NCBI RefSeq assembly: GCF_014196425.1 | Contig: NZ_JACIDR010000007.1 | Span: 1-64,000 of the forward strand | Length of the DNA: 64,000 nt | DNA from: Hansschlegelia beijingensis | GTDB lineage: Bacteria > Pseudomonadota > Alphaproteobacteria > Rhizobiales > Methylopilaceae | Direction of reading: 5' to 3' | In this document: positions 8,450 to 23,353 of the stretch, piece after piece | How positions within the stretch are numbered: the stretch's first letter is position 1 | How the letters are laid out: each line of letters begins with the position of its first letter | The notes under the pieces: model-generated | What the model saw: the letters and a program-made list of their open reading frames with translations, nothing else | What the model was told of the DNA's origin: nothing | The model's database searches: none | Position numbers and translations under genes: made by a program

Positions 8450-9466
8450 CTATTCGGCGGCCTGCTTCGTCCGCTCGCCGTAGAGCCGCGTCGGCGCGGG
8501 GAAGCCGCAGGAGGTTCCGTCGACCACCTTCACCTCGTCCTCCCAGGGCAGCCGGTAGGTCCCCGCCACGAGGTCGTGCATGAAGGTGTAGGGGCAGTCC
8601 TGCGCGCCGCCCTTCACCGCCACATAGGCGCGGTGGCCGAGCTGGTAGATGTTGTTCTCGACGCCCCAGCTGATCCGCGCCTCGCGCACCAGATCGGGGC
8701 GGACCTCCGCGGTGATGATCTCGTTCGGCCGCCCGGTCTCGCCATGCGCGATGACGGTCCCGTCGAAGTTTACGATCATGCCCTCCCCCATGGAGTCGAA
8801 CGAGCCGTCGCTGCCGCACATGCAGACGTTCGCGGTCACCATCAGGTTCTGGAAGGCGTTGGCCTGGTTGGTGAAACGCCAGCTCTGGCGGATCGGAGCG
8901 GTGTAGCCCGCGGTGCGGATCATGATCTCCGCGCCCTTGTAGGCGCACTCGCGCGCCATCTCGGGGAACATGCCGTCATGGCAGATGATGAGGGCGATCT
9001 TGGCGCCCTTCGGCCCCTCGATCACCGGGATCCCGAGATCGCCCGGCTCCCACGGCTCGACCGGCACCCAGGGGTGGAGCTTGCGATAGTTCAGCCGGAT
9101 CTCGCCCTCATCGTCGATGATGAGCCCGGTGTTGTAGGGCATGCCGCCGGGGTTCAGCTCCATGATGGAGAAGCAGCCCCAGATCCGGTTGTCGATGCAG
9201 GCCTGCCTGAAAGCCGCGACCTCCGGCCCGTCGATCCGGCACATGATCGCCGGGTTGATGTCCATCGACAGGCCGTGCAGCGCATATTCGGGGAACACCA
9301 CGAGGTCCATCGTCCCGAGGTTCCGGCGCGCCTTGCCCACCATCTCGACGATGACCCTGGTCTGGGCCGCGAGGTCCTCGGGCGTCAAGACCGTGGGCAA
9401 CTGGAGCTGCACCAAGCCCAGGACGACGCCCTGCTCCGACTTGTTCAATCCGCCGAGGCCGTTCAC
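8450..9466 (-). CDS. amiF: Formamidase (AmiF, nitrilase superfamily)
   Basis: Cytoplasmic enzyme hydrolysing formamide to formate and ammonia. With GTG at 9466 the protein is 338 residues, the normal AmiF length, and begins NGLGGLNKSEQGVV as AmiF proteins do; GGAGG lies 8 bases upstream of that GTG. The catalytic triad of the family is visible as Glu60 (VVFPEY), Lys129 (NYRKLHPW) and Cys162 (LIICHDGMFPE). Long identical blocks such as EMARECAYKGAEIMIRTAGY fit formamidase rather than the sister aliphatic amidase AmiE. It is divergent from the hydratase operon, which suggests a shared substrate pathway and shared control from the 262-base intergenic region. Confidence 0.92.
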   Translation of the reverse strand: MNGLGGLNKSEQGVVLGLVQLQLPTVLTPEDLAAQTRVIVEMVGKARRNLGTMDLVVFPEYALHGLSMDINPAIMCRIDGPEVAAFRQACIDNRIWGCFSIMELNPGGMPYNTGLIIDDEGEIRLNYRKLHPWVPVEPWEPGDLGIPVIEGPKGAKIALIICHDGMFPEMARECAYKGAEIMIRTAGYTAPIRQSWRFTNQANAFQNLMVTANVCMCGSDGSFDSMGEGMIVNFDGTVIAHGETGRPNEIITAEVRPDLVREARISWGVENNIYQLGHRAYVAVKGGAQDCPYTFMHDLVAGTYRLPWEDEVKVVDGTSCGFPAPTRLYGERTKQAAE

Positions 9467-9607
9467 TGGCTCCACCTCCAGGACAGATGAGCGCGCTGCT
9501 CTGGCCCGCGCCCGGCAACAGAGCCTCGGCCACATCAAGCCGGATGCACAGTCCAAATATTAGACCGGCGGCCGCCCAGCATGGATGCCGCGCCCCCTAA
9601 CGTGCCG

Positions 9608-9622
9608 ATTAGCGATCCTAAT
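9608..9622. promoter_or_regulatory. Candidate LysR-type operator (box 1)
   Basis: Perfect inverted repeat ATTAG-CGATC-CTAAT, which fits the T-N11-A rule of LysR-type regulators. It lies about 140 bases upstream of the formamidase start and about 105 upstream of the binding-protein start, so it could serve both divergent promoters. The same ATTAG-N5-CTAAT arrangement recurs at 15251-15265 upstream of the antiporter gene. Confidence 0.6.
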
Positions 9623-9689
9623 GAGCCCGGCTATTGGCTTGATCGCCCGTCGACGGCGGCCGGGAAGGGCCGTGGCATGGAGGTTGCTG

Positions 9690-9731
9690 ATGAGCGCCGT
9701 GGCCCACACCAAGCACGGACCCGGCGCATGA
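9690..9731 (+). CDS. Possible 13-codon leader peptide, coupled to the binding-protein gene
   Basis: Short open frame encoding MSAVAHTKHGPGA with an excellent ribosome site (GGAGG six bases before its ATG). Its TGA overlaps the ATG of the next gene as ATGA, and that gene lacks a good site of its own. This is the layout of a translationally coupled leader. Whether it senses anything is unknown; the peptide has two histidines but no obvious run of a regulatory amino acid. The alternative is that the downstream protein starts at an ATG at 9677 in its own frame. Confidence 0.4.
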   Translation: MSAVAHTKHGPGA

Positions 9732-11089
9732 CCGAAACGCCTCCCAGGCTGAAGCCGCGCTGCGCATGCGGCTGCGGCGGAGCCCTCGAGAGCCATCGCG
9801 AGATGTCCCAAGGCGCGCTGTACGGCGGCGCCCATGACGGCGTGGAGGCCCGCGTGGACCGTCTGGTCGAGAGCGCGATCCTCGGCGCCATAGCGCCCGA
9901 CCCGATGTTCCGGCGCGCCTTCCTCAAGGCGGTCGGCGCGTCGACCGCGCTGGCGGCGATCTCCCAGCTTCTTCCTCTCGGCGCCGCCCGGGCGATCGCG
10001 CAGGACGCCGCAAAGCCCGAGAAGACGAAGCTGAACGTCGGCTATGTGCCGATCACCTGCACCACGCCGCTTCTCCTCGCCCACGCGATGGGGGAATACG
10101 GCAAGGAAGGGCTCGAGGTGAATCTCGCCCGCACCCCCGGCTGGGCGATCGTGCGCGACAAGCTGATCTCGGCCGAGTTCGACGCCAGCCATCTCGTGCT
10201 CGCCATGCCGCTCACCATGACGATGGGCGTCGGCGGGCCGACGCTGCCCACCCACGTGTCGACCGTCCAGAACGTCAACGGCAACGCGATCACGCTCAGC
10301 GTCCGGCACAAGGATCGCCGCGATCCGAGGGACTGGAAGGGCTTCAAGTTCGGCATCCCGCACCAGCATTCGATGCACGCCATGCTGCTGCGGTACTATC
10401 TGGCCGAGAACGGCCTCGATCCCGACCGCGACGTCGAGCTCCGGGTGTTCCCGCCGCCGGACTCGGTCGCCAACATGGCGTCCGGCAATCTGGACGGGAT
10501 GCTGTTCGCCGAACCGTGGGGCCAGCGCGCGGTGTTCGAGGGCGTCGGCTTCCTGCACGCGCTGACGCGCGACATCTTCCCCAACCACCCCTGCTGCGTG
10601 CTCTCCGTCACGGACAGGTTCATCACCGAGAGCCCCAACAGCTACGCGGCGATGTTCCGCGCCGTGGTGCGGGCGACCGAGTTCGCGGACAAGCCCGAGA
10701 ACCGCAAGCAGGTGGCGGAGCTGCTCGCGCCTGCGGCCTATCTCAACCAGCCCCAGACGGTTCTCGAGCAGGTGCTCACGGGCCGCTACGCCGACGGGCT
10801 GGGCAAGGTGGTCAACGAGCCGGACCGCATCGGCTTCAAGGCGCTTCCCCACCGCTCGACCGCGATCTGGCTGCTGACCCAGCTGCGCCGCTGGAACATG
10901 GTTCCGGCCGACGTCGACTATGCGGCCATGGCCGAAAAGGTCTTCCTCGCGACCGACGCCGCCAGGCGCATGAAGGAGATCGGCTTCGAGGCCTCGGTGA
11001 CGCCGTTCCAAACCGTCGTGATGGGCCGGGCGTTCGATCCCTCCGCGCCCCAGGCTTATGTCGACAGCTTCCCCATCAAGAGCATCTGA
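9728..11089 (+). CDS. Tat-exported NrtA/CmpA-like ABC substrate-binding protein
   Basis: 453-residue periplasmic binding protein of the NrtA/SsuA/CmpA type (KLNVGYVPITCTTPLLLAHAMGEYGKEGLEVNL, then HVSTVQNVNGNAI and a conserved GLDPDRDVELRVFPPPD block). A twin-arginine signal (FRRAFLKAVGAS) starts only around residue 61; it is preceded by a cysteine-rich head with CACGCGG at residues 12-18. It heads the hydratase operon and is followed after nine bases by the first hydratase subunit gene. No permease or ATPase is adjacent, so it either borrows the importer at 18.2-20.9 kb or acts as a sensor. The ligand is likely a small anion or nitrile, but this is inference. Confidence 0.85.
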   Translation: MTETPPRLKPRCACGCGGALESHREMSQGALYGGAHDGVEARVDRLVESAILGAIAPDPMFRRAFLKAVGASTALAAISQLLPLGAARAIAQDAAKPEKTKLNVGYVPITCTTPLLLAHAMGEYGKEGLEVNLARTPGWAIVRDKLISAEFDASHLVLAMPLTMTMGVGGPTLPTHVSTVQNVNGNAITLSVRHKDRRDPRDWKGFKFGIPHQHSMHAMLLRYYLAENGLDPDRDVELRVFPPPDSVANMASGNLDGMLFAEPWGQRAVFEGVGFLHALTRDIFPNHPCCVLSVTDRFITESPNSYAAMFRAVVRATEFADKPENRKQVAELLAPAAYLNQPQTVLEQVLTGRYADGLGKVVNEPDRIGFKALPHRSTAIWLLTQLRRWNMVPADVDYAAMAEKVFLATDAARRMKEIGFEASVTPFQTVVMGRAFDPSAPQAYVDSFPIKSI

Positions 11090-11098
11090 GAGAACGCG

Positions 11099-11428
11099 AT
11101 GACACGCGGCTACCACGACATCGGCGGCAAGGACGCCGGCCCCATCCCCATCGTCGAGCTGCCCTGGCTGCATTGGGAAAAGCAGGTCGAGGCGATCCGG
11201 AGCCTGCTCGGCGACGGCACGCGCCGCATGATGTCCCTCGACGAACTGCGGCGCGGGTTCGAGTCGTTCGGCGAGGACAAGTACAAGAAGCTGTCCTTCT
11301 ACCGCCGGCGGCTGGAGGCGATGATCGACATCCTCATCGAGAAGGACGTGTTCACGCGCGACGAGCTCGACGCCGCCATGGCCGAGGCCCGCGCGCGGTG
11401 GGCGCCGCCGGCCGCCTGCCGGTCATGA
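11099..11428 (+). CDS. Nitrile hydratase/thiocyanate hydrolase, beta N-terminal-type subunit
   Basis: 109-residue helical protein matching the N-terminal half of nitrile hydratase beta subunits: YHDIGG near the start, HWEKQVEAI, then LSFYRRRLEAMIDILIEKDVFTRDEL. In ordinary nitrile hydratases this region is fused to an SH3-like barrel; here it is a separate gene, as in three-subunit thiocyanate hydrolase (scnB-scnA-scnC) and toyocamycin hydratase. Gene order (helical, barrel, metal subunit) equals scnBAC. It is shorter than Thiobacillus ScnB (about 157). Its stop overlaps the next start as ATGA, so subunits should be made in fixed ratio. Confidence 0.8.
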   Translation: MTRGYHDIGGKDAGPIPIVELPWLHWEKQVEAIRSLLGDGTRRMMSLDELRRGFESFGEDKYKKLSFYRRRLEAMIDILIEKDVFTRDELDAAMAEARARWAPPAACRS

Positions 11429-11775
11429 GGCCCCGTTTCGACGCGGGCGACCGGGTCTCGGTCCTGGAGCTCGGCAAGCCCGGGCATGTCAGGACGCCGT
11501 TCTACGTCCGCCGGCGCGAGGGCGTCGTGCTGCACCGCTGCGGCTCCTACCTGAACCCCGAGGAGCTCTCGGTCGGCAAGGTCTGCGGCCCCGTCGTGCC
11601 GCTTTACCGGGTCGGCTTCGCGATGACCGACCTCTGGGACGACTACCGGGGCTCGCCGGCCGACATGCTCTGCCTCGAGCTCTACGACCACTGGCTCGCG
11701 CCGGCGGCGGCCGCCCCGCTGGACGGTGAGCCGGCGCGCGACGACGAAGCTTTCGAACATGGAGGCCGCCCGTGA
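11425..11775 (+). CDS. Nitrile hydratase/thiocyanate hydrolase, SH3-like barrel subunit
   Basis: 116-residue protein matching the C-terminal barrel of nitrile hydratase beta subunits and thiocyanate hydrolase alpha subunits: FDAGDRVSVLELGKPGHVRTPFYV, then NPEELSVG, LYRVGFAMTDLW and LCLELYDHWLAPA. In the assembled enzyme this barrel packs against the metal subunit and helps form the active-site pocket. It carries two cysteines (HRCGSY, KVCGP) not typical of the barrel. It overlaps both neighbours (ATGA upstream, GTGA downstream), so translation is coupled across all three subunit genes. Confidence 0.85.
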   Translation: MRPRFDAGDRVSVLELGKPGHVRTPFYVRRREGVVLHRCGSYLNPEELSVGKVCGPVVPLYRVGFAMTDLWDDYRGSPADMLCLELYDHWLAPAAAAPLDGEPARDDEAFEHGGRP

Positions 11776-12434
11776 GCGACCACGACCACGCCCACGATCA
11801 TGATCATGATCATGGCCACGGGCATGACGCCCACGAGCCGCTCGTCGTCGAGGACGACGCCGGCAACATCGAAGGCCAGATCCTGGTCGACGCGTTGCAG
11901 ACGCTGCTGGTCGAGCGTGGCCTCGTCTTCCCCGGAGAGGTGCGGCGAGAGATCGAGCGCCTGGAGTCTCCGGGGGCCCATCTCGGGGCGCGGCTCGTCG
12001 CCCGCGCCTGGGTCGACGACGACTATCGGCGGCGGCTTCTGGCGGACGGCAAGTCGGCGGCCGCCGAGCTCGGGGTCGGGGTCGGCGAGGCGCAGCTCAT
12101 CGTCGTGGAGAACGACGCCACGACCCATAATCTGGTCTGCTGCACCCTCTGCTCCTGCTATCCCCGCTCGATCCTCGGCCAGCCGCCGGCCTGGTACATC
12201 AGCAAGGCCTATCGCTCGCGCGCCGCGCGCGAGCCGCGGGCCGTGCTGGAGGAGTTCGGGCTGAAGGTGCCGGACGAGGCCCGCGTGCTGGTCCACGACA
12301 GCAACGCCGACATGCGCTACCTGGTGCTCCCGCAGCGGCCCGCGGGAAGCGAGGCCATGAGCGAGGATCAGCTCGCCGGGCTGGTGACGCGCGACTGCAT
12401 GATCGGGGTGTCGGTGGTCGGCCCCGTCTCCTGA
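11772..12434 (+). CDS. Cobalt-type nitrile hydratase alpha / thiocyanate hydrolase gamma subunit
   Basis: 220-residue metal-binding catalytic subunit. The metal claw is CTLCSC at residues 124-129; Thr in the second position marks the cobalt type. The two downstream cysteines are normally oxidised to sulfenic and sulfinic acids. The rest of the family block follows (YPRSILGQPPAWY, EPRAVLEEFG, VTRDCMIGV); Cys in VTRDC is, from memory, as in thiocyanate hydrolase gamma rather than Ser as in common nitrile hydratases. The N-terminus is a run of His/Asp (residues 3-21), a trait also recalled for ScnC. Start is GTG, preceded by GGAGG and overlapping the previous stop. No cobalt activator gene is visible nearby. 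Its 3' end overlaps the opposite LysR gene by 67 bases. Confidence 0.88.
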   Translation: MSDHDHAHDHDHDHGHGHDAHEPLVVEDDAGNIEGQILVDALQTLLVERGLVFPGEVRREIERLESPGAHLGARLVARAWVDDDYRRRLLADGKSAAAELGVGVGEAQLIVVENDATTHNLVCCTLCSCYPRSILGQPPAWYISKAYRSRAAREPRAVLEEFGLKVPDEARVLVHDSNADMRYLVLPQRPAGSEAMSEDQLAGLVTRDCMIGVSVVGPVS

Positions 12435-13378
12435 TCGCCGCGCTCCGGCCTCAGATGCGCCGGGGCGTAGCGCATCAGTTCGCTCGCCATGCGGATGTCC
12501 TCGGCGACCTCGATGAAGGCGCGCACCGCAGGAGGCTGCGGCTCGCGCTCCAGCACCATCATCCCGATCGTGTTGGTGATGCGGGGTTCGATCAACGGCA
12601 CCGCCCGCGTCTGGCTCCAGTCTCCGACCATCATGAAGAAGCTGTTCGGCACGACCGCGAACCAGTGGCCGGGACGCACATGGGAGCAGAGCGCGAGAGC
12701 GCAGTTGGTCTCAAGCACGGTGCGCGGCGTCACGCCGACGCTGGAGAACACCCGATCCAGAATCCGGCGGTTCTGCATGTCCGGCGTCAGCATGCACAGC
12801 GGCAGGCGGCCCGCCTCGGTCCATGTGACGGATTTCCGCTGCGCGATCGGGTGGTCGGCCGGCGCGATGAGGAAATAGCTCTCGTCATACAGGAAGTAGG
12901 GCCGCAGCCCGGCCGAGGCGCCGTGGTCGAGATAGTTGATGCCGACGTCGAGATCGAAGTTCTCGAGACCGCTCTTCAGATCCATGAAGTTGAGCGAGGT
13001 CACCGACACGCTCACGTCGGGGAAGAGCCGGTTGAAGGCGGTGGTGATGATCGAGATGCCGGGCGTCGCGACCGGGATCACGCCCAGCCGGACGTGGCCG
13101 CTCAGCTCGTCCCCGGCCGACATGATGTCCTGAACGAGATGCTCGTGGTGGTCGAGCGTGCGGCGCGCGAAAGCCAGCACCATCGCCCCCTGAGGGGTGA
13201 AGCCCTCGAAGCCCTGGTTGTGGCGGTCGATGATCAGGGTGTTGAGGTCGCTCTCGATCTGGCGGATCGCCTGGGAGAGCGCCGACTGGGTGATCCCGCA
13301 CTCCGCGGCGGCCCGGCCGAAATGGCGATGGCGCGCCAGCGCGACGACGTAGCGGAGATGCCTGAGGTTCAGAGCCAC
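12368..13378 (-). CDS. LysR-family transcriptional regulator
   Basis: 336-residue LysR regulator: N-terminal winged helix (LRHLRYVVALARHRHFGRAAAECGITQSALSQAIRQIESD) and a type-2 periplasmic-binding effector domain (GHVRLGVIPVATPGI, DLDVGINYLDHGA). GTG at 13378 is preferred because upstream sequence has no LysR homology. It sits between the hydratase operon (convergent, 67-base overlap of the coding ends) and the antiporter/monooxygenase operon (same strand, 122 bases upstream). It is a good candidate to bind the ATTAG-N5-CTAAT boxes at 9608 and 15251. The C-terminal ~30 residues are non-conserved. Confidence 0.88.
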   Translation of the reverse strand: MALNLRHLRYVVALARHRHFGRAAAECGITQSALSQAIRQIESDLNTLIIDRHNQGFEGFTPQGAMVLAFARRTLDHHEHLVQDIMSAGDELSGHVRLGVIPVATPGISIITTAFNRLFPDVSVSVTSLNFMDLKSGLENFDLDVGINYLDHGASAGLRPYFLYDESYFLIAPADHPIAQRKSVTWTEAGRLPLCMLTPDMQNRRILDRVFSSVGVTPRTVLETNCALALCSHVRPGHWFAVVPNSFFMMVGDWSQTRAVPLIEPRITNTIGMMVLEREPQPPAVRAFIEVAEDIRMASELMRYAPAHLRPERGDQETGPTTDTPIMQSRVTSPAS

Positions 13379-13500
13379 GCGCCGACAACCCTGTTGCGAA
13401 CCCGATAGAACGGGACCCCGCCCCGGATGGCAAGCAACCCGCGCGCCGGAATCGGAAGCGCGCGCGAGACAGACGCGGCGCGGCCGCGGGCCGGCGCCGC

Positions 13501-13845
13501 TCAGCCCGACGCGGCGCCCCCGTCCGCGGCCGCCTGGGCGCGGTCGGTCAGGCCGTAGTCTCTGATCACGCTGGCGATCCTCACCCGATAATCGTTGAAG
13601 ATGCCGCCGCGGCCGGCGTCCTGCGCGAGTTGATGACGGCCGTGGAGACGCCACTGGCGCAGGGCCGCCTCGTCTCGCCAGAACGAGATCGACACCAGTT
13701 TTCCCGGCTGCGTCACACTTTCGAACCTCTCGACGGAGATGAAGCCGTCGATGGTCGCGACGTCGTCTTTGAGGCGTTTCGCGATGGAGAAGTATTCGTC
13801 CGCACGGCCCTCGGCCGGCGTCATCTCGATGATGACCGCGATCAC
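13501..13845 (-). CDS. Antibiotic-biosynthesis-monooxygenase (ABM) domain protein
   Basis: 114-residue dimeric alpha/beta barrel protein of the ABM superfamily: MIAVIIEMTPAEGRADEYF, IDGFISVERFES, KLVSISFWRDEAALRQWR and a buried histidine in LHGRHQLAQ. Such proteins act as cofactor-less monooxygenases, haem degraders or simply small ligand binders; the substrate cannot be told here. Its start overlaps the antiporter stop (ATGA), so the two are expressed together, suggesting a role in handling whatever the antiporter moves. Confidence 0.8.
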   Translation of the reverse strand: MIAVIIEMTPAEGRADEYFSIAKRLKDDVATIDGFISVERFESVTQPGKLVSISFWRDEAALRQWRLHGRHQLAQDAGRGGIFNDYRVRIASVIRDYGLTDRAQAAADGGAASG

Positions 13846-15164
13846 GAGCGCGCCTCCTGGACAGTGAGTCCGACAGGCGCTGCGGGCGCCCGGCCCCCTT
13901 CGGCGGACCTCGCCCTGCCCGCGGGCTTCAGGATGAACAGGGCCACCGCGGCCACCAGGAGGTTCAGGACCATCGCGACGAGGAAGACTGAGTACCAGCT
14001 GCCCGTATAGGCGCGCAGCCAGCTGCCGGCCGGGACCAGCGCGGCCGCGACGCCTTTGCCCGTGTACAGGATGGCGCAGTTCGTGGCGGCGTAGCGCGAG
14101 CCGAAGAAGTCGGTGCAGAGCGCCGGGAACAGCCCGTAGATGTCGCCCCAGGTGAAGTAGACGAGCGCGACCGTCAGGATGAACAGATACGGGTCGCTTC
14201 CGAACGCGCCGAGAGCCCAGTACGCGCCCGCGCCCAGGATGAAAGAGATCGCCATGACGTTCTCGCGGCCGATCCTGTCCGAGATCCAGCCGAACACCGG
14301 TCGCGCCAGCCCGTTGATGACGTTGTTGATCACCGCGGAGGCGACGACCACAGTCGACGTGACGACCAAAAGATCAACCACTGCGTTCGCGATGTCATAG
14401 TCCTTCAGGATCGGACCGATCTGGGCCGTGACGAGCAGCCCGCTGGCCGCCACCGTCACGAACATCAGATACATGACCCAGAAGATCGGCGTCCTGAGCA
14501 TCTCCCCCGGCCTCGCGCCCTCCGGAGCGGAGATCGGCGCGTTCTGGGCCGGCCTCGCCCTGGTGGCAGGAGCGACAAGAAGAAAGCTCAGGACGAGGAT
14601 GACCAGGCCCTGCGCCAGCCCGAACCAGAAGAAGGCGGCTTCATAGCCGTGGGCCTCGATGACCCTGATGATGGGGACGATCGTCAGCACCGAGCCGCCG
14701 CCATAGCCCATCGCGGTCAGGCCGGCCGCAAGTCCTCGCCGGTCCGGGAACCACTTCAGCGCGTTGCCCATGCACGCCGTCCAGACCGCGCCATTGCCGA
14801 TGCCGGACAAGGCCATGCCGAGATAGAGCATGGGAAGGCTCTGGGCCTGCGAGTTGATCACCCATGCCGCGGCCACGAACACGCCGCCGATCGCCACGAC
14901 CGACCGCGGCCCGAAGCGATCGGAAAACCACCCTTCGATCGGCACCAGCCAGGTCGCGGCCATGATGAAGATGGTGAAGCCCCACTGGATCGCCTCCCTT
15001 CCCCAGTTGTGCCGGGCGTTGATGGGATCGACGAAGTACGTCCATCCGTATTGAAGGTTTGCGATCATGACGACGCAGGCGACGCCGGCCGCCAGTTGAA
15101 CCCAGCGGTTCGGCGCGCCGGTCGCCGGAGCGACTGGATCGATCTTCAGGCTTGTAGAGCTCAT
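13842..15164 (-). CDS. oxlT: OFA-family MFS transporter (oxalate/formate antiporter type)
   Basis: 440-residue inner-membrane carrier with 12 predicted TM helices. The OFA hallmarks are present: QYGWTYFVDPI in TM1, GIGNGAVWTACMGNALKWFPDRRGLAAGL in TM4-5, and the two charged residues known to bind oxalate in Oxalobacter OxlT, here Arg288 (GLARPVFGW) and Lys370 (LYTGKGVAA). It may exchange oxalate for formate or carry a related small carboxylate. Formate is also the product of the formamidase in this island. The upstream region carries a second ATTAG-N5-CTAAT box at 15251. It is translationally coupled to the ABM protein. Confidence 0.85.
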   Translation of the reverse strand: MSSTSLKIDPVAPATGAPNRWVQLAAGVACVVMIANLQYGWTYFVDPINARHNWGREAIQWGFTIFIMAATWLVPIEGWFSDRFGPRSVVAIGGVFVAAAWVINSQAQSLPMLYLGMALSGIGNGAVWTACMGNALKWFPDRRGLAAGLTAMGYGGGSVLTIVPIIRVIEAHGYEAAFFWFGLAQGLVILVLSFLLVAPATRARPAQNAPISAPEGARPGEMLRTPIFWVMYLMFVTVAASGLLVTAQIGPILKDYDIANAVVDLLVVTSTVVVASAVINNVINGLARPVFGWISDRIGRENVMAISFILGAGAYWALGAFGSDPYLFILTVALVYFTWGDIYGLFPALCTDFFGSRYAATNCAILYTGKGVAAALVPAGSWLRAYTGSWYSVFLVAMVLNLLVAAVALFILKPAGRARSAEGGRAPAAPVGLTVQEARS

Positions 15165-15250
15165 CGCGTCACGCCCCGCGTTCGCCAGGTTCCTAGGGCG
15201 TTGCTGGCAAGGGACGTGCCATCCGCGCCATGTCGCGAAGACGGTGGGCG

Positions 15251-15265
15251 ATTAGACGACCTAAT
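15251..15265. promoter_or_regulatory. Candidate LysR-type operator (box 2)
   Basis: Perfect inverted repeat ATTAG-ACGAC-CTAAT, extending one base further on each side to GATTAG/CTAATC. It fits the T-N11-A rule and has the same half-sites as the box at 9608-9622. It lies 87 bases upstream of the antiporter start, a usual distance for LysR-type activation. Confidence 0.6.
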
Positions 15266-15460
15266 CTGAGAGTAACTTTTCAACGATCAAAGCGCGGCTT
15301 CGTCGCCGCTCAAGATTTCAGCGGTTATCGCATTGCTCCACCCGAGACCGGACAGTGCGCCGGGAACTGCCGCGCAAGCCGGTCTGGCTCATCTGAAACC
15401 GTTGACGGCCGGGAAGCCGTCGCGCGGCGCCGCGCGACGGTCATGGGCGCGATGGGCGGA

Positions 15461-16408
15461 TCATTTCAACCGGACGCGGTCGTCGCCGTCATGCGTCGCG
15501 CCGCCACGAAGGTAATCCTGGTCCTCGTGGATCTGCCGCTGGAGGAATTTCACAACCTCCTTGATCCGCGACACATGAAGCGTGTCCTCATGCGTGGAGA
15601 TCCAGATGTCCCGCACCGTTGAAAGCTTCGGAAGCACGGGCTTCAGCGAGGGATTGTTCGCCGCGACGAAGCTCGGAAGCATCGCGATCCCCTGTCCGGA
15701 CGTCACGGCGGCGTATTGCGCGACCAGGCTGGTGCTGCGGAACACCGTATTGGCCGGCCGATACACGTCCGACAGCCACTTGTTCTCGTTGACGGAAATG
15801 TACTCGTCGACGAAGTCGATGAAGTCATGCGCCTCGAGATCCGCCGTCTTGCTCGGATGGCCATGCCGGGCCAGATAGGCCTCGGAGGCGAACAGCGATA
15901 CGCGGAACTCTCCGGCCTTCGCGGTCTGGAGGCCCCTGCCCGGCGGGCGGAAGAACGTGACGAATATCTCCGCTTCCCGTCGCGTCAGATCGAGCGTGCG
16001 GGTGTCGGTGATCAACTCGACCAGAATGCCGGGATGTCGCTCACGAAACGCGCCCAGCCGGGCGGTGAGGTAGAAGCTGCCGATGCCCTCCATGGTGGCG
16101 ATGCGCACGGCGCCGCCGGCGTCGCTGCCGACGCCCACCGTCTCGGTCAGGGCGTTCGCCTGGTTCTCCATGCCTTCGGCGTGACGCATGAGCCGCGTGC
16201 CGATCTCCGTCAGCGTGAAGCCGGTGCGGCTGCGCTTGAACAGATTGGCCCCGAGGCTGCGCTCCAGCTCCCGGACGCGGCGGCTCACCGTCGTGTGGTC
16301 CACCCGCAGGACCTTGGCGGCGCGGCCGAGGTTCTTGTGACGGGCGACGGCGAGGAAGTAGACGATGTCGTTCCAGTCGTAGCGCAGCGGCGCTCTGGCC
16401 TCGCTCAT
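15461..16408 (-). CDS. LysR-family transcriptional regulator
   Basis: 315-residue LysR regulator. The winged helix is clear (WNDIVYFLAVARHKNLGRAAKVLRVDHTTVSRRVRELE), with the VDHTTVSRRV pattern of the LysR subgroup that often controls single adjacent operons. The effector domain begins at GGAVRIATMEGIGSFYL. It lies between the nitrilase operon (upstream, same strand) and the antiporter gene (downstream, 296 bases away). ATG at 16408 is preferred: CGGAGG lies about ten bases upstream and the LysR homology begins soon after. It is an alternative candidate for the boxes at 9608 and 15251. Confidence 0.88.
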   Translation of the reverse strand: MSEARAPLRYDWNDIVYFLAVARHKNLGRAAKVLRVDHTTVSRRVRELERSLGANLFKRSRTGFTLTEIGTRLMRHAEGMENQANALTETVGVGSDAGGAVRIATMEGIGSFYLTARLGAFRERHPGILVELITDTRTLDLTRREAEIFVTFFRPPGRGLQTAKAGEFRVSLFASEAYLARHGHPSKTADLEAHDFIDFVDEYISVNENKWLSDVYRPANTVFRSTSLVAQYAAVTSGQGIAMLPSFVAANNPSLKPVLPKLSTVRDIWISTHEDTLHVSRIKEVVKFLQRQIHEDQDYLRGGATHDGDDRVRLK

Positions 16409-16474
16409 CCCTCGGCCTCCGTCGATCGACGTAATCGGCAGAGTCTTACCTGACGCGGAGGCCAGCGCCAGCGT

Positions 16475-16500
16475 CGGAGCCGGCGATGACGCCGGCTCCG
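16475..16500 (-). terminator. Hairpin after the double-nitrilase gene
   Basis: A perfect 11-bp stem (CGGAGCCGGCG, loop ATGA, CGCCGGCTCCG) starts 15 bases beyond the stop codon of the double-nitrilase gene on the minus strand. There is no T-tract, but position and stability fit the end of the importer/nitrilase operon. Confidence 0.6.
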
Positions 16501-16514
16501 GAAGGGCCGAAACC

Positions 16515-18191
16515 TTAGGCCGCGACGAGGGGCGCATAGGTTTCCGGCATGCGGTTGGCGAACATGTCCACCTTCGGGATCATCATCTTCTGGCGGCAGA
16601 CCGCGAGGTCCACATGCCGCGGCATCACCGCGCCAAGCTGGAGCGACCGGGGCGCCGCGACGTTGATGTCCCACATGGGGAAGCCCGTGGGGGGCACGAC
16701 CATGCTGCCGCCCGGATAGGGCGAGTCGACCCGGTTCGCGAGCACGAGCGCGACGCGGTTGTCCTCGGCGCGCGGCACGGCGAGCAGTTCGCGCTCATAC
16801 GGCTCGCGCAGCGCCGCCGGCCACAGCACGATGTCGGCCCCGCCGACGCCGAGGCAGCGCGAGGTCTCGGGGAACACCCCGTCGAAGCCCGACATCACGC
16901 CGATGCGGCCGAACTGCGTGTCGAACACCGGGTAGGCGTCGCCCGCGGTCGCCCAGGCGCGCTCCTCGGCCGTCAGATGCGTCTTGCGGTAGCTGCCGAC
17001 GCGCCCCCCGTCCGGACCGATCAGGACGGTCGACACGAACAGCTTGCCGGCGTCCTCCTCGATCACCGGGGCGGCGATCAGGCAGCCATATCTGGACGCG
17101 ATGGCGGAGACCTTCTCCAGGATCGCCGGCGTCGCCCTCGCCTGCTCCTTCGCCTCGGAGGCGCTCGGAGCCCAGGTCGGCGAGAAGGCGTATTCGGGCG
17201 CCGTGATCACCTTCGCGCCGAGCTTGGCGGTGTGGTCGATCATCTCGAGCACGACCTCCGGGTCGGCCGCGCCGCGCGTGCAGTGCATCTGCACGGCCGC
17301 GACCTTGGTGACGCTCTTCGAGGGAACGAGCGGCTGGTCCGCAAGACCGCAGACCGGCGTCTGCTCGTAGGGCAGAGCGAGGGCGCCATAGGTCTCCGGA
17401 CGGCGGCCGGCGATCTTGTCGTCAGCGGCGTAGATCGACTTGTCGCCGGCCATCTCGGGATCGACGTCGGCGACCGCCATGCCGTGCGTGTCGTACGGCA
17501 CCTTGGAGACGACGCGGCCCTTCGGGTCCACGATCATGCTGCCGCCGGGATAGTAGATCGAGCGCTCATAGCCGGCCTTGGTGGCGGCGACGAGCCACAC
17601 GCCGTTCTCGTAGGCGCGCGCCGGGCCCCACATGTCGGCCTGGTCCATCGAGAAGAAGTTCGCCATGTCGACGATGATCTCCGCGCCCTGCAGCGTCATG
17701 GAGCGGAAGATCTCGGGGATGCGGCCGTCGAAGCAGATCAGGAGGCCGATCCGGCCGAGATCGGTGTCGACCACAGGGCAGCCGCGCTCGCCGAACTCAA
17801 ACCAGTTCTGGTCGTGCGTGGCGAGGAACTGCTTGTGGTAGTGGCAGGCGAGCCCGCCCTTGCGGTCGAACATCACGCCGGAGTTGAAGATCTTCTTCTT
17901 CTCCGGATCCCACTCGGTGATCCCGCTCGCGATGTAGACGCCGTGCTTGGCGGCCAGCGCCGACAGCGCGGTGACGAACGGCCCGTCAGTCACCGTCTCG
18001 GCGAGCTCGCGAGCGTGCTCCGCGGAGTCGAACAGGTAGCCGGTGTCCATGCATTCGGGGAACACGATGAGCTCGGCGCCCTGGCGGACCGCGTCCTCGA
18101 CATACTGCGTCGCGAGCTTGATGTTGTGGTCGTAGTCCCCGAGGCGCGCGAGCGTTTGCACCGCTGCGGCGCGGAAGCGTCGCTTCGTCAT
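16515..18191 (-). CDS. Double-domain nitrilase-superfamily amidohydrolase, second domain inactive
   Basis: 558-residue protein with two carbon-nitrogen hydrolase domains in tandem, where most family members have one (about 270 residues). Domain 1 (1-270) has an intact triad: Glu46 (VFPECMD), Lys120 (YHKQFL), Cys153 (LLICFDGRIPE). Domain 2 (about 293-558) keeps Glu333 (APEY) and Lys403 (YRKTHL) but Gly435 replaces the nucleophilic Cys (GVMSGFDGVFPE), so it should not be catalytic. Domain 1 resembles N-carbamoyl/aliphatic amidases. It is 46 bases downstream of an ABC importer ATPase gene, so the importer probably supplies its substrate, a nitrile, amide or carbamoyl compound. Confidence 0.85.
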   Translation of the reverse strand: MTKRRFRAAAVQTLARLGDYDHNIKLATQYVEDAVRQGAELIVFPECMDTGYLFDSAEHARELAETVTDGPFVTALSALAAKHGVYIASGITEWDPEKKKIFNSGVMFDRKGGLACHYHKQFLATHDQNWFEFGERGCPVVDTDLGRIGLLICFDGRIPEIFRSMTLQGAEIIVDMANFFSMDQADMWGPARAYENGVWLVAATKAGYERSIYYPGGSMIVDPKGRVVSKVPYDTHGMAVADVDPEMAGDKSIYAADDKIAGRRPETYGALALPYEQTPVCGLADQPLVPSKSVTKVAAVQMHCTRGAADPEVVLEMIDHTAKLGAKVITAPEYAFSPTWAPSASEAKEQARATPAILEKVSAIASRYGCLIAAPVIEEDAGKLFVSTVLIGPDGGRVGSYRKTHLTAEERAWATAGDAYPVFDTQFGRIGVMSGFDGVFPETSRCLGVGGADIVLWPAALREPYERELLAVPRAEDNRVALVLANRVDSPYPGGSMVVPPTGFPMWDINVAAPRSLQLGAVMPRHVDLAVCRQKMMIPKVDMFANRMPETYAPLVAA

Positions 18192-18237
18192 GATGATGGT
18201 CCTTCTGTGTAACGGCGTGGCGGAGGCCGCCAGGAAC

Positions 18238-19068
18238 TCAGTTCGGCTCGGGCGCGGCTTTGACTTCGCGCCAGAAAGTCTCGAGGCAGCGCCGCTTCAG
18301 GGCGACGAAGGCCTCCGATGTCGTGGCCTCGGCGTCGCGCGGCCAGGGCAGATCCACCTCGACGATCTCGGCGACCCGCGTGGGGCGGCGGGTCAGCAGC
18401 ACCAGCTTGTCGGCGAGTTCGATCGCCTCCTCCAAATCGTGCGACACGAGCAAGGTCGTGATCCGGCGCTTCAGGTAGATCTTCTGCAGCTGCGCGCGCA
18501 TCAGCAGCGTCATTTCATAGTCGAGGGCGGAGAACGGCTCGTCGAGGAACAGCACCTCCGGGTCGGTGACCAGCGCGCGCAGAATGGAGATCGTCTGCTG
18601 CTGGCCGCCGGAGAGCGTGTAGGGATAAGCCGCAAGGTCGAACTTCATGTCGAACTCGGCGACGATCTCCTCGACGCGCCGCCGCCGTTCGGCCCTCGGC
18701 ACGCCCATCAGCTTGAGCGGGTACTCGATGTTGTCGATGGCGCGGCGCCAGGGAAACAGCGCCTCGCGGTAGTTCTGGAAGACGTAGGAAATCCGCGTCT
18801 CCCGGGTGGTGCGCCCGTCATACAGGGCTTCCCCCGCATCCATCGGCGTGAGGCCCGAGATCATGTTGATCAGGGTGCTCTTGCCGCAGCCGTTCGGCCC
18901 GAAGATCGAGATCGCGGAGCCGAGCGGCAGCTCGAGGTTGAAGTCCTTGTAGACGACGGCGCCGTTGAAGCTCTTCGACAAGCCCCGGATGGCGAGCTTG
19001 CCGACCCTGCCGGCGCGGGGCGCCGGAGGCTCCGTGGGCGTCGGCTTCAGCGCGTGGATCGAGGCCAA
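18238..19068 (-). CDS. ABC importer ATPase (NrtD/SsuB/TauB type)
   Basis: 276-residue ATP-binding subunit. Walker A GPNGCGKST, Q-loop VFQNYREALFPW, signature LSGGQQQ (an unusual variant of LSGGQRQ), Walker B VLFLDEPFSALD and the switch histidine in SHDLEEA. The homology begins near a TTG at 19068, which has GGGGAG about eight bases upstream; no ATG or GTG fits as well, so a TTG start is called. It is 23 bases downstream of the binding-protein gene in the order permease, binding protein, ATPase, nitrilase. Confidence 0.88.
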   Translation of the reverse strand: MASIHALKPTPTEPPAPRAGRVGKLAIRGLSKSFNGAVVYKDFNLELPLGSAISIFGPNGCGKSTLINMISGLTPMDAGEALYDGRTTRETRISYVFQNYREALFPWRRAIDNIEYPLKLMGVPRAERRRRVEEIVAEFDMKFDLAAYPYTLSGGQQQTISILRALVTDPEVLFLDEPFSALDYEMTLLMRAQLQKIYLKRRITTLLVSHDLEEAIELADKLVLLTRRPTRVAEIVEVDLPWPRDAEATTSEAFVALKRRCLETFWREVKAAPEPN

Positions 19069-19091
19069 GGCGGTCGCTCCCCAGTTCGCCG

Positions 19092-20129
19092 TCAGCTGCC
19101 GAGATCGGCGGCGGTGAGCATCTTGGTCCGTACGTCGAGCGGCCCGGACAGCACGCCTTCCTTGATGAAGACGTCGACGAGAGCCTGATAGGACGCCGTG
19201 TCGACCTCGTTGATGTCCGAGAAGCCGCGCAGGTAAGGCTGCGCGACGGAGGGCAGCTGCTCTTCCCTGATGGCGGTGTATTTCGGAAGAACCTTCTTGT
19301 ACTTGTCGAAGTCGGCGTTCACCAGCGCGGTCGCCTGGTCGATCACCTCGACGACCTTCTTGGCGACGGCCGGCCGCTCCTTCAGGAAGCGCACGGTGAT
19401 CAGCGAAGCGCCCGAGTAGAACGGGTCGGCGATGACGGCCGCGACCGGGTTGACCATGGCGCGCTTGGCCTTGCCGGACGCCGCCGCGATCGACCCGACC
19501 GGCTCCAGCGAGAGCGTCGCGTCCGCGGTGCCGCCGACCACCGCAGGCACCTGCATGGCGACCGCCAGGTCGACGAGCTTCACGTCCTTGTCGGGGTCGA
19601 GGCCCGACTCGCGCACCAGATGCCGGGCGATGGTGCGCCACTGGATGCCGGGCACATGGCCGAGGGTCTTGCCCTTGAGATCCATGAAGGTCTGGATCGG
19701 GCTGTCGGGCTTCACGATCAGGCCGTCATTGATCCGGTCCACCTTGATGCCGCCGCCCTGCAGCCCGAACACCTTGAACGTGCCCGGGAACTTCTGCTCC
19801 GCGACCATCGCGATGCCGGCCGCCGCGCCGGGAGGGCCGAAATCCGCGCGGCCGGAGACCAGGGCGTCGATGATGTGGTTGGGAGACTCCATCTTGGCGG
19901 ACGAGATCTCGATGCAGGCCTTCTCGAAGAGCTTCTCCTCGAGCGCCACGTAGTAGGCGGTGGTCTGCATGATCGGCAGCCAGGCGGCTGTGACCTTTTC
20001 CATGCGGTCGCAAGCGAGGGCGGGAGCGCCGGCGGCGAGGAGAGCGGCGAGGGCGAGCGGTGCGGCGGAGGCGCGCATGCGGTGGCTCTTTCGGTGCGAG
20101 CTGCGGGAGGAGAGAGGGCGGGCGATCAT
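19092..20129 (-). CDS. ABC importer substrate-binding protein (SsuA/TauA/NrtA-like)
   Basis: 345-residue periplasmic binding protein. The signal peptide lies at about residues 18-39 (MRASAAPLALAALLAAGAPA), with cleavage before CDRMEKV. The family pattern follows: AAWLPIMQTTAYYVALEEKLFEKACIEI, GRADFGPPGAAAGIAMVAEQ, GVSG-type hinge regions and DLKGKTLGHVPG. It resembles binding proteins for sulfonates, nitrate or thiamine precursors, but no residue identifies the ligand. The start overlaps the permease stop (ATGA); a second ATG 17 codons in could be the real start of the signal peptide. Confidence 0.85.
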   Translation of the reverse strand: MIARPLSSRSSHRKSHRMRASAAPLALAALLAAGAPALACDRMEKVTAAWLPIMQTTAYYVALEEKLFEKACIEISSAKMESPNHIIDALVSGRADFGPPGAAAGIAMVAEQKFPGTFKVFGLQGGGIKVDRINDGLIVKPDSPIQTFMDLKGKTLGHVPGIQWRTIARHLVRESGLDPDKDVKLVDLAVAMQVPAVVGGTADATLSLEPVGSIAAASGKAKRAMVNPVAAVIADPFYSGASLITVRFLKERPAVAKKVVEVIDQATALVNADFDKYKKVLPKYTAIREEQLPSVAQPYLRGFSDINEVDTASYQALVDVFIKEGVLSGPLDVRTKMLTAADLGS

Positions 20130-20902
20130 CGGCCGGACCAGTGGATGAGCCGGCCTTCGAGCACGAGCAGAAGGAGGTTGAGGCCGTAGCCGAGCGCGCC
20201 GGTCACCAGGATCGACCCGTACATGTCGGGCAGCTCGTAGGAGATCTGCGCGTCGATGATGCGGTGGCCGAGCCCGTCGGTCGCGCCGATGAACATCTCG
20301 GCGACGATGATGACCACGAGGGCGATCGAAACCGCGTTGCGGAGGCCGACGAAGGTCTGCGGCAGCGTCTCGAAGAAGATGACGTCGCCGAAGATGCGCA
20401 GGGACGACGCGCCCATGGATTGCGCCGCGAGGATCCGTGTGCGGCGCGCGTTCAGGACGCCGTAGGCGACGTTGAAGACGATGACCAGCCAGGCGGCGAA
20501 CGCCGCGACCGCGATCTTGGCCGCGTCGCCGAGCCCGAACAGAAGCAGGAAGAGCGGGAACATCGCGGTCGCGGGCGTCGAGCGGAAGAAGTCGATCAGG
20601 AACTCGACCGACCGGTAGACCGCCGCCTTGGCTCCGAGGATGATGCCCACCGGCACGCCGGCCGCGACGGCGATCACGATCGACCAGCCCACCCGCGACA
20701 GGGTGCTCATGAAGTCCTGGTTGAAGGCGCCGGCGGCGACTTCACCGAATGTGTCATGGATCGTCGTGAACGGCGACGGCAGAAGATCCTTGTTCACCAG
20801 CTGCGCGCTGTAGGCGATCCACCATACTCCGACCAGCAGCGCCGGTCCGATCGACTTTTCAACAGCCTTACTCAGGTACGCTTTTGCGGTTTCCGCGCCC
20901 AC
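20126..20902 (-). CDS. ABC importer permease (SsuC/TauC/NrtB type)
   Basis: 258-residue inner-membrane permease of the BPD family with six predicted TM helices. The cytoplasmic EAA loop appears as AAQSMGASSLRIFGDVIFFETLPQTFVGLRNA, which contacts the ATPase. The N-terminal pattern ALLVGVWWIAYSA and LLPSPFTTIHDTF is typical of SsuC/TauC relatives. It is the first gene of the importer/nitrilase operon and overlaps the binding-protein gene by four bases. The operon promoter must lie within 20903-21088. Confidence 0.88.
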   Translation of the reverse strand: MGAETAKAYLSKAVEKSIGPALLVGVWWIAYSAQLVNKDLLPSPFTTIHDTFGEVAAGAFNQDFMSTLSRVGWSIVIAVAAGVPVGIILGAKAAVYRSVEFLIDFFRSTPATAMFPLFLLLFGLGDAAKIAVAAFAAWLVIVFNVAYGVLNARRTRILAAQSMGASSLRIFGDVIFFETLPQTFVGLRNAVSIALVVIIVAEMFIGATDGLGHRIIDAQISYELPDMYGSILVTGALGYGLNLLLLVLEGRLIHWSGR

Positions 20903-21661: not shown

Positions 21662-23353
21662 ATGTCGCGCCTATCTCGACTTGGTGTTCGATCGTTGATC
21701 GCGGGATCAGCGGCTGTGGCCCTGATCGCGGCGGCCGGAAAGGCCGCGACGGCCGCCGAAGCGGTCGCCCCGCCGCCGAAGCTGGTGCTGTTCATGGCCA
21801 TCGACGGCTTCCCGCAGGAACAGTTCGTCAAGTATTACGACCAGCTCGCGGATGGCGGCCTGAAGCTGCTGCTGGACAAGGGCGCCTGGTACGGCAACAA
21901 CCATTACAGTCACGCCACCACCTACACCGGCGTCGGACACGCCACCCTGCTGTCCTGCGCCCACCCTTACAAGCACGGGGTGATCGGCAATGACTGGATC
22001 GACAAGCAGACGAAGAAGCGCGTCTATTCCACGGAAGACCCCCGCCACAAATACCTCGACGAGGAAACGCCCGACCACGCCGGCACCTCGCCGTTCAACA
22101 TCAAGGTGACGACGGTCGGCGACGAGCTGATCTACGCCAACGGCAAGTCCAAGGTGATCGCGATCGCCGGCAAGGACCGCAGTTCGATCGGCCTCGCAGG
22201 CCAGTTCAGCGTCGCCTACCTGCACAGCACGACGACCGGGCGCTTCATCACCTCCGACTACTATATGGCCGCGTATCCGGAGTGGTGGACGGCGTTCTAC
22301 GCGAACAAGCCGCAGGACAAGTTCTTCGGCCAGACATGGACCCTCTCCATGCCGGACGAGGCCTATGCCCGATCGGTTCCCGACAACCAGCCCTGGTCCA
22401 CGAACTACAAGGGGCTGGGCGTCAAGTTTCCGCACCCGATCGACGGTGGGGGCGCAAGCGACAAGCCCGGAAAGGGCTATTACGACGCGACCATGTGGAC
22501 GCCGTTCGGCGACCTGCTGATGCTGGACTTCGTGAAAGCCGCCATCGACGGCGAGAACCTCGGCCGCAATCCGTCGGGCGCGCCGGATCTGCTCGCCCTG
22601 AGCTGGACCAGCCATGACTACGTCAACCACCTGTTCGGTCCGGAGAGCCGCCAGTCCCATGATCAGACGGTGCGCCTCGACCGCGTCTTCGCCGATCTGT
22701 TCAAGTTCATCGACGAGCGCGTCGGGCTCGACAACGTTCTGATCACGCTGTCGGCCGACCATGGCTTCATGAACATCCCGGAATACAGCTCCAGCCGCAG
22801 GCTCGACGCCGGGCGCATCGATCCGGAGGCCATGATCAACGACGTCAACGCCGCGCTTTCGAAGCAGTACGGCGACGGCAAGTACGTCACGACCTGGTGG
22901 AACCCGAACCTTTACGTCGACTATGCGATGCTGGCCGAGCGCAAGCTCGACAAGGTCGAGGTCGAGGAGGCGATCGCATCTTTCCTGCGGGAGTATCCGG
23001 GCGTCGAGGCGGTCTTCACCCGCACCCAGCTGGAGCGGGGGCAGATGCCGGCGACCAGGCTCGCCAAGCAGGTGACGCTCGCCTGGCACCAGAAGATCAG
23101 CGGCGACATCGTCATCATGAACAAGCCGAACTGGTACCTGTTCGCCAAGCCCAAGGGCTATGCGTCGACCCACGGCTCCCCCTGGGCCTACGACACCAAC
23201 GTGCCGCTGGCGATGTACGGGCCCGCCTGGATCGCCCCCGGCAAGTACGGCGACTCCGAGACGGTCGACCTCGCCCGGACCGTCGCGCACATCCTGAACG
23301 TCCGGCCGCCGAACGGCTGCGAGGGCAGCGTTCTGACCGAAATGCTGCGCTGA
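21662..23353 (+). CDS. PafA-like alkaline phosphatase / phosphodiesterase superfamily protein
   Basis: 563-residue exported metallohydrolase with a signal peptide (residues about 11-32, AVALIAAAGKAATAAEA). Active-site features of the Thr-nucleophile PafA type are visible: Asp48 (MAIDGF), Thr89 in TTYTGVGHAT, Asn110 (GVIGNDW), Lys171-Asp-Arg173 (GKDRSS), SHDYVNHLFGP (Asp and His), SADHGF (Asp-His) and the late His in STHGSPW; these bind two zinc ions and the phosphate. GGGAGGG precedes the ATG. It would release phosphate from monoesters in the periplasm. No Pho regulator is adjacent and the gene appears to be monocistronic. Confidence 0.88.
   Translation: MSRLSRLGVRSLIAGSAAVALIAAAGKAATAAEAVAPPPKLVLFMAIDGFPQEQFVKYYDQLADGGLKLLLDKGAWYGNNHYSHATTYTGVGHATLLSCAHPYKHGVIGNDWIDKQTKKRVYSTEDPRHKYLDEETPDHAGTSPFNIKVTTVGDELIYANGKSKVIAIAGKDRSSIGLAGQFSVAYLHSTTTGRFITSDYYMAAYPEWWTAFYANKPQDKFFGQTWTLSMPDEAYARSVPDNQPWSTNYKGLGVKFPHPIDGGGASDKPGKGYYDATMWTPFGDLLMLDFVKAAIDGENLGRNPSGAPDLLALSWTSHDYVNHLFGPESRQSHDQTVRLDRVFADLFKFIDERVGLDNVLITLSADHGFMNIPEYSSSRRLDAGRIDPEAMINDVNAALSKQYGDGKYVTTWWNPNLYVDYAMLAERKLDKVEVEEAIASFLREYPGVEAVFTRTQLERGQMPATRLAKQVTLAWHQKISGDIVIMNKPNWYLFAKPKGYASTHGSPWAYDTNVPLAMYGPAWIAPGKYGDSETVDLARTVAHILNVRPPNGCEGSVLTEMLR

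Follow-up and report, generated by a model that had tools for sequence, protein, structure and literature searches.

Cobalt-type nitrile hydratases, the thiocyanate hydrolase ScnBAC, the cyanuric acid/biuret pathway (AtzD, BiuH, AtzE, AtzF) and the importers NrtABCD and CynABD are the described systems closest to a 12.5-kb island of Hansschlegelia beijingensis (GCF_014196425.1), a soil bacterium belonging to a methylotrophic genus. The DNA analysed, called the window below, comprises bases 1–64000 of contig C7 (NZ_JACIDR010000007.1; 191,872 bases) of a 3.66-Mb genome in 12 contigs. The island consists of two modules side by side: module A, with the amidase gene amiF on the minus strand, a binding-protein gene and three hydratase genes (SBP1-hB-hA-hC) on the plus strand and the regulator gene LysR1 on the minus strand; and module B, an ATP-binding cassette (ABC) importer followed by the tandem nitrilase gene nit2 and a second regulator gene, LysR2. 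We propose, with evenly divided confidence, that these neighbouring modules use small N-cyano nitriles as a nitrogen source, all substrate assignments being drawn from genomic context alone.

The island hydratase shares with cobalt-type nitrile hydratases the alpha-subunit family, the metal motif CTLCSC and the beta N and C domains, and its closest solved chains are 4ob1 and 3qxe. It differs in that beta is split into two genes, the N-terminus of the metal subunit hC is His-rich, YPR rather than YPW follows the motif, hC falls under the NHase alpha cut-off (TIGR01323, 233.1 vs. 249.85) and no activator gene was seen in module A. ScnBAC has its three genes in the same order (hB-hA-hC corresponding to scnB-scnA-scnC), but hC lies far under the gamma cut-off (TIGR03887, 185.4 vs. 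291.45) and the context is one of formamidase, BiuH and AtzF. With the cyanuric acid/biuret pathway the proposed system would share the allophanate end-route, and orthologs of AmiF and BiuH occur in such operons; entry would instead be through a nitrile, by a hydratase or nitrilase behind an SsuA-class importer, an arrangement that was not found in the open-licence literature searched. NrtABCD and CynABD resemble the island in the class of SBP1 and in the NtrB/NtrCD-like neighbours of module A in one metagenome-assembled genome (MAG), but no cyanase was seen in the island and its only permease scores 65.0 against an NtrB cut-off of 209.05. Pseudomonas pseudoalcaligenes, likewise a case of bacterial cyano-nitrogen use with nitrilases, reportedly assimilates cyanide with a different gene set.

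One importer joined to either of two enzymes

Orthologs of SBP2, the binding protein of the module B importer, were found in 22 of 397 genomes of the order (E 1e-30, own genome included), 13 of them at an identity of at least 65%, and in 4 of 385 genomes of the class, again counting our own. Neighbourhoods were read in the 15 genomes with SBP2 at 65% identity or more and on a Klebsiella plasmid (63%), giving 16 loci; a second, similar plasmid record and eight genomes with SBP2 matches at 27–34% were left out. One enzyme is directly joined to the importer in all 16: nit2 in eight (window, G009, G016, G657, G458, G684, G493 and the Klebsiella plasmid) and hB-hA-hC in the other eight (G510, G496, G553, G420, G635, G666, G074 and G315), G numbers denoting genomes. 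No locus has both enzymes directly beside the importer and none has neither (0/16 each). In the window the hydratase stands 6 kb beyond the importer-nit2 module, and the Klebsiella plasmid has, about 3 kb downstream, another ABC importer followed by a two-gene nitrile hydratase. SBP2 is 61–84% identical across nitrilase-type and hydratase-type importers, and when enzyme type is mapped on a tree built from ATPase, SBP2 and permease, at least two changes are required, forced by the starred branches; the row of the Klebsiella plasmid is long and its placement unsure. Since one importer is paired with either a nitrilase or a hydratase, its cargo is probably a nitrile.

An earlier sequence-only reading of the window had taken the two halves of the island to be functionally linked, and this is borne out by the importer orthologs that share operons with this hydratase type. 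The arrangement exceeds chance: module A recurs in 4 relatives, and 15 loci other than the window pair the importer with one of its enzymes. Module B is absent beside module A in relatives, and we had considered the halves as unrelated neighbours; this candidate was dropped because importer orthologs are joined to the hydratase type elsewhere.

A predicted model of SBP2 (mean predicted local distance difference test score 80.8) matches SsuA, PqqT, ThiY, CmpA, NrtA and TauA alike and so gives no hint, and by sequence only a weak SsuA match was obtained. As for the enzyme, the double nitrilase announced by the sequence-only reading is present as a tandem of CN-hydrolase domains, with the Glu-Lys-Cys active site of the N-domain kept in 8/8 orthologs aligned, but the second domain lacks the catalytic Cys in all eight. 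The importer might alternatively carry biuret or another urea derivative, with nit2 as an amidase and the hydratase of the sister operons serving an unrelated nitrile. Amidases and carbamoyl hydrolases are among the best solved relatives of nit2, which moreover runs into AtzF in two operons; this account nevertheless leaves unexplained that a nitrile-acting enzyme takes the place of nit2 in 8 of 16 importer operons, and we give it little probability.

More distant SBP2 homologs (loci L155, L156 at 45% and L157 at 52%) have neither enzyme adjoining, and L157 sits between isochorismatase hydrolases and an AtzF homolog. A CorA-type Mg/Co transporter gene (185.6 bits, cut-off 200.75) was seen in G657 (L145:14387-15361), at a distance of about 3 kb from its importer, with an ortholog in G684 (L147:14383-15357).

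Biuret and allophanate genes around the importer

The partners of the importer point to biuret and allophanate. G074 has the order perm-SBP2-ATP-hB-hA-hC-BiuH-AtzF on one strand, whereas the nitrilase-type loci of G458 and G493 read perm-SBP2-ATP-nit2-AtzF (AtzF of G458, 814.5 bits vs. a cut-off of 487). BiuH passes the NF050097 cut-off of 370 in G074 (421.4) and G510 (421.0), and in G553, G420, G635 (where the locus ends at the contig end) and G666 it neighbours the importer, encoded on the other strand, so that 5 of the 16 loci have an importer-adjacent BiuH. At 79% identity or more, BiuH was found in 8/8 hydratase-type and 2/7 nitrilase-type genomes (Fisher p 0.007, with a threshold chosen after the data had been seen and a p value that ignores relatedness). 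The biuret-binding residues and the numbering of Gln215 follow an extract of PMC5806882; Gln215 is kept, along with other biuret-binding residues, in the copies of BiuH that were read, of which 4 stand next to importers and 9 belong to biuret-type operons. At this position the isochorismatase hydrolases of the Klebsiella plasmid, G009 and G010 have Glu, and they adjoin nitrile hydratases of one clade.

AtzF exceeds the TIGR02713 cut-off in our own genome (784.3 vs. 511.05; G000:C7:187400-189070) and is over its cut-off in all 16 genomes searched, including 12/12 importer genomes outside the genus. In none of these 12, two of which are less than 90% complete, was urea carboxylase found, nor does urea_degr_2 pass its cut-off in any, with one weak match in G458. 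These absences argue against the urea and guanidine routes as the source of allophanate in those 12 genomes. For our own AtzF, the notion of an orphan fed by nit2 alone was dropped, a urea carboxylase-family gene and a urea_degr_2 gene being present. In H. zhihuaiae (G017:C5:35000-54000, L255) AtzF stands beside an ATPase and further open reading frames of transporter size, and neither BiuH nor urea carboxylase was found in that genome.

Urea carboxylase and urea_degr_2 together form the gene set for guanidine use, and their presence in our own genome would suit dicyandiamide (cyanoguanidine) as the cargo, converted to guanylurea, then carboxyguanidine and, by deimination, allophanate. The Klebsiella plasmid likewise joins importer-nit2, a nitrile hydratase, a urea-ABC-type binding protein and the Glu-type isochorismatase hydrolases. 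Dicyandiamide is down-weighted because the guanidine-route genes are absent from the importer genomes outside the genus, all 12 of which have AtzF; the importer-adjacent BiuH of G074, over its cut-off and with Gln215, also speaks against it. We regard this cargo as improbable, and the open-licence literature searched gave no match for dicyandiamide together with nitrile hydratase.

A sister system with a two-gene nitrile hydratase, an SsuA-class ABC importer and a Glu-type isochorismatase hydrolase was seen in L113 (NZ_CP056226.1, 27195-52097), L022 and L023, with a urea-ABC-type binding protein added on the plasmid L113; judging from its genes, this may be a dicyandiamide-to-guanylurea system.

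Module A and its hydratase

Module A is intact in four other genomes: G016, G017 (of the same genus as the window's genome and taken to be H. zhihuaiae) and two MAGs, one from the Xanthobacteraceae (L031) and one from the Hyphomicrobiales (L032). Identities across these relatives are 72–93% for amiF and 70–88% for hC, and no homologs of MFS (a major facilitator superfamily antiporter gene of the island), ABM, LysR2, nit2 or SBP2 were found beside module A in the four. Relatives of hC are widespread at E 1e-40 (183 of 397 genomes of the order), yet at 64% identity or more, among the matches listed, only G000 (our own), G016, G017, G510 and G496 appear; in the class, 146 of 385 genomes have relatives and, besides our own, only G074 and G315 reach 64%. 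In a 58-row tree the module A and importer-type hydratases form one clade (Shimodaira–Hasegawa-like approximate likelihood ratio test, SH-aLRT, 80), within which the enzyme of the Hyphomicrobiales MAG groups with the importer-type enzymes (SH-aLRT 92) and has their ITCTLCSC motif. Given this shared clade and the importer-operon company of the hydratase, we expect from sequence that the module A enzyme acts on the importer's cargo or a near substrate. Other loci holding hydratase relatives look different: homologs of amiF, SBP1, SBP2, AtzF and AtzD (E 1e-8) occur in 0/55, and BiuH is the best match of a gene in 5/55, at more than 50% identity in 2. A second hydratase alpha homolog of our own genome (47%; G000:C3:5576-6232) belongs to a separate clade.

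Thiocyanate had been among the substrates suggested by the sequence-only reading, and module A as a thiocyanate hydrolase operon, giving carbonyl sulfide (COS) and ammonia with SBP1 as the thiocyanate binder, would have in its favour the gene order, the CSCYPR motif as in SCNase and the anion class of SBP1. The YPR motif, however, is shared by the majority of the 58 hydratase rows, and a formamidase has no place in a COS route. Thiocyanate hydrolase identity was rejected on the gamma score of hC, and thiocyanate is a very unlikely substrate; the four importer-linked hydratases tested, like hC, reach neither the cut-off for NHase alpha nor that for SCNase gamma.

AmiF as formamidase or biuret amidase

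By family score AmiF is a formamidase (NCBIfam NF009803, 574.7 vs. a cut-off of 406) and not an aliphatic amidase (225.6 vs. 427); its best PDB matches are the formamidases 5g3o and 2dyu, and the formamidase cut-off is passed in 5/5 module A loci. Orthologs were found, one each, in 11 of 30 genomes searched, and amiF adjoins the hydratase in five loci (3 of the 11 genomes and two MAGs). In 8 genomes, orthologs of 81–93% identity are found within biuret-type operons or close to them. They adjoin BiuH in G510, G496 and G315, in an operon that also encodes a Bmp-type ABC importer; in G684 the distance to an operon with BiuH and a Bmp-type ABC importer is about 4 kb; and in G008, G010, G011 and G014 they lie immediately upstream of a biuret-type operon that includes BiuH, AtzF and AtzE-like genes (AtzD and AtzE being family-confirmed in G014 only). 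G016 has a biuret-type operon without amiF, and its amiF sits in module A. The pairing of amiF with the three-subunit hydratase, an element of the sequence-only reading, holds in 4/4 module A relatives but not in the 8/8 importer-hydratase loci, near which no amiF homolog was found; neighbourhoods of this kind, without formamidase, correspond in part to what had been named beforehand as counting against it.

AmiF may handle biuret-like amides, or else the use of formamide may simply be clustered with that of other slow nitrogen sources. Because its role stands between these two, we retain for module A a tentative alternative in which cyanide is hydrated to formamide, AmiF releases formate and ammonia, the MFS antiporter moves formate, and module B is a separate nitrile system. 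The formamidase scores of AmiF agree with this route, as do the oxalate/formate-family antiporter carrying module A's promoter box (see below) and the cyanase clusters that hold 4 of the 7 SBP1 relatives read. Against it stand the hydratase clade, which module A has in common with importer operons leading to biuret hydrolase and AtzF, the position of AmiF orthologs immediately upstream of such operons in four genomes (G008, G010, G011 and G014), and the mostly uncharged state of hydrogen cyanide at neutral pH, for which a binding protein would be unneeded. A nitrile hydratase-formamidase-cyanide cluster like module A was not found by title in the open-licence literature searched. This cyanide route is compatible with the module B part of the N-cyano proposal, and the likelihoods given to the two need not sum to one.

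A promoter box shared with a transporter gene

A 15-base box, ATNAG-N5-CTNAT, lies between amiF and SBP1 in 5/5 module A loci, and its variable arm base covaries on both sides across them; LysR1, convergent with hC, is conserved in the 4 relatives. The box has exactly two matches in the 64 kb of the window, at 9608 and, upstream of the MFS gene, at 15251. Allowing up to one mismatch, 0.18 matches would be expected, and two were reached in 2 of 100 shuffles. It was absent from 631,607 control bases of hydratase loci and from the other importer and biuret loci scanned. The rule was derived from the module A promoter alignment, and its middle base was loosened once the fifth locus had been added; independent evidence for it therefore comes only from the match at 15251 and from the controls, which had none. 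The second box probably ties MFS-ABM to the module A regulon, and the regulator would probably be LysR1; the MFS cargo might be formate, oxalate or the cyano anion itself. In 7 nitrilase-type loci, a scan for perfect palindromes in the region upstream of module B turned up no shared box. In the relatives examined, neither module A nor the importer was found to have an MFS or ABM homolog alongside, within flanks of about 2–10 kb.

SBP1 has a twin-arginine near 9911 and resembles NrtA and CmpA structures; 4 of the 7 neighbourhoods of its plasmid relatives contain cynS. No NtrB-type permease for it was found in the island, the rest of the genome not having been searched for a partner. In Bosea vaviloviae and Bradyrhizobium sp. 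4 (L261, L262), SBP1-related binding proteins of the CmpA/NrtA class have a molybdopterin oxidoreductase and a carbon-nitrogen hydrolase as near neighbours instead of cyanase.

A candidate route for N-cyano compounds

Hydration to biuret on the one hand and allophanate as the one-step product of a nitrilase on the other are both satisfied by one simple nitrile, N-cyanourea (NC-NH-CO-NH2). In the route that we propose, the permease, SBP2 and ATPase of module B would import a nitrile, most likely N-cyanourea or possibly its precursor dicyanamide, which would arrive at the same pathway through cyanourea. The active N-domain of nit2 would hydrolyse cyanourea directly to allophanate and NH3, and AtzF, about 167 kb off on the same contig, would finish allophanate to NH3 and CO2. 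In module A the three-subunit hydratase, presumably a cobalt enzyme, would hydrate the same or a related cyano compound to the amide (cyanourea to biuret), for which AmiF would be the amidase. LysR1 is the putative regulator binding the ATNAG-N5-CTNAT boxes and would control amiF, the SBP1-hydratase genes and MFS-ABM, whereas SBP1 would bind an anion of the nitrate/cyanate class and work with a presumed partner permease. A precedent for the hydration of an N-cyano group by a nitrile hydratase is given for acetamiprid in an extract of PMC11573777.

A more specific and clearly more speculative version is that of an undescribed N-cyanourea/dicyanamide pathway, in which the partner of the importer has switched, two or more times, between a nitrilase acting in one step and the two-step combination of a split cobalt-type hydratase with BiuH, and AmiF was recruited as a biuret amidohydrolase. 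No link among biuret, nitrile hydratase and allophanate hydrolase was found in those parts of the open-licence literature that the search covered. If true, there would be an enzymatic fate for N-cyano nitrogen (cyanourea, dicyanamide and perhaps residues of calcium cyanamide or dicyandiamide fertiliser), and nitrile metabolism would be joined to the biuret/allophanate route. The loci would also be a natural experiment in non-homologous replacement, with one importer working either with a nitrilase in a single step or with a hydratase and an amidase together. A specific and inexpensive prediction would follow for the three-gene hydratases, a large group that is uncharacterised, and for a tandem nitrilase that has no name.

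Several observations weigh against the N-cyano proposal. AtzF adjoins the importer in only 3/16 loci; it is also over the cut-off in 9 of 14 genus or family members without the importer, so its presence alone says little, and in our own genome the urea carboxylase-family and urea_degr_2 genes could feed it. When any BiuH homolog at E 1e-20 is counted, the contrast between hydratase-type and nitrilase-type genomes shrinks to 8/8 vs. 5/7, and the genomes are not independent, four hydratase-type ones being of one genus. A search of our own genome for BiuH at E 1e-20 found none, and module A would therefore need AmiF to act on biuret. We know of no formamidase that does so; AmiF appears by its score to be a genuine formamidase, and it occurs together with BiuH, adjoining or near, in 7 genomes, which speaks against a simple replacement. 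The box-linked antiporter of the oxalate/formate family would fit a formate-yielding route, and the open-licence literature searched gave no account of microbes using cyanourea as a nitrogen source, nor any match for cyanourea together with biuret.

The sequence-only reading, which saw an island for taking nitrogen, and perhaps C1 carbon, from cyanide, thiocyanate or small nitriles, is supported in kind as regards nitrogen from small cyano compounds, with substrates assigned by gene context; it was right in kind and probably wrong in detail for the importer half, where a cyanourea-type compound, not thiocyanate, would be taken to allophanate and CO2. A C1-carbon route, possible for module A, is weakened by the importer-type partners BiuH and AtzF, which end in NH3 and CO2.

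Gene content of the island

All genes named by that reading are open frames at the positions it gave, with family support; the ABM-domain gene, which overlaps the MFS gene by 4 bp, was overlooked (Table 1). Genes in the fetched loci were called with a home-made codon score, with tblastn alongside, and may be missed or mis-started. The entire 12.5-kb combination was met in the window only, among the relatives examined.

Table 1. Features of the island, in window coordinates.
Feature	Position	Strand	Remarks
amiF, formamidase-family amidase	8450..9466	-	likely start GTG 9466, frame open to 9556
LysR-type box ATTAG-N5-CTAAT, amiF/SBP1 divergent promoter	9608..9622		covarying arms in module A loci
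SBP1, predicted exported CmpA/NrtA-class binding protein	9728..11089	+	PF13379 254.8 bits; likely start 9728
hB, hydratase beta N-domain subunit (scnB position)	11099..11428	+	PF21006 51.1 bits
hA, hydratase beta C-domain subunit (scnA position)	11425..11775	+	PF02211 65.1 bits
hC, hydratase metal subunit, NHase alpha	11772..12434	+	PF02979 247.4 bits
LysR1, likely regulator of module A and MFS-ABM	12368..13378	-	conserved in 4 relatives
ABM-domain protein	13501..13845	-	PF03992 57.0 bits
MFS antiporter, oxalate/formate family	13842..15164	-	TIGR04259 527.7 > cut-off 335
Second LysR-type box ATTAG-N5-CTAAT, upstream of MFS-ABM	15251..15265
LysR2, likely regulator of module B	15461..16408	-	ortholog beside nit2 in G009, G016, G657, G684
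nit2, tandem nitrilase	16515..18191	-	PF00795 twice
ABC importer ATPase	18238..19068	-	PF00005 104.4 bits; 52–86% orthologs in 15 other loci
SBP2, importer binding protein, SsuA/NMT1 class	19092..20129	-	start 20129 or 20078
ABC importer permease	20126..20902	-	PF00528 61.1 bits

Elsewhere in the window, a gene of the PQQ-dehydrogenase type lies at 36726-38618. A type I phosphodiesterase gene (21716-23353) adjoins the island, and a PF01663 gene is also found near the importer in G458.

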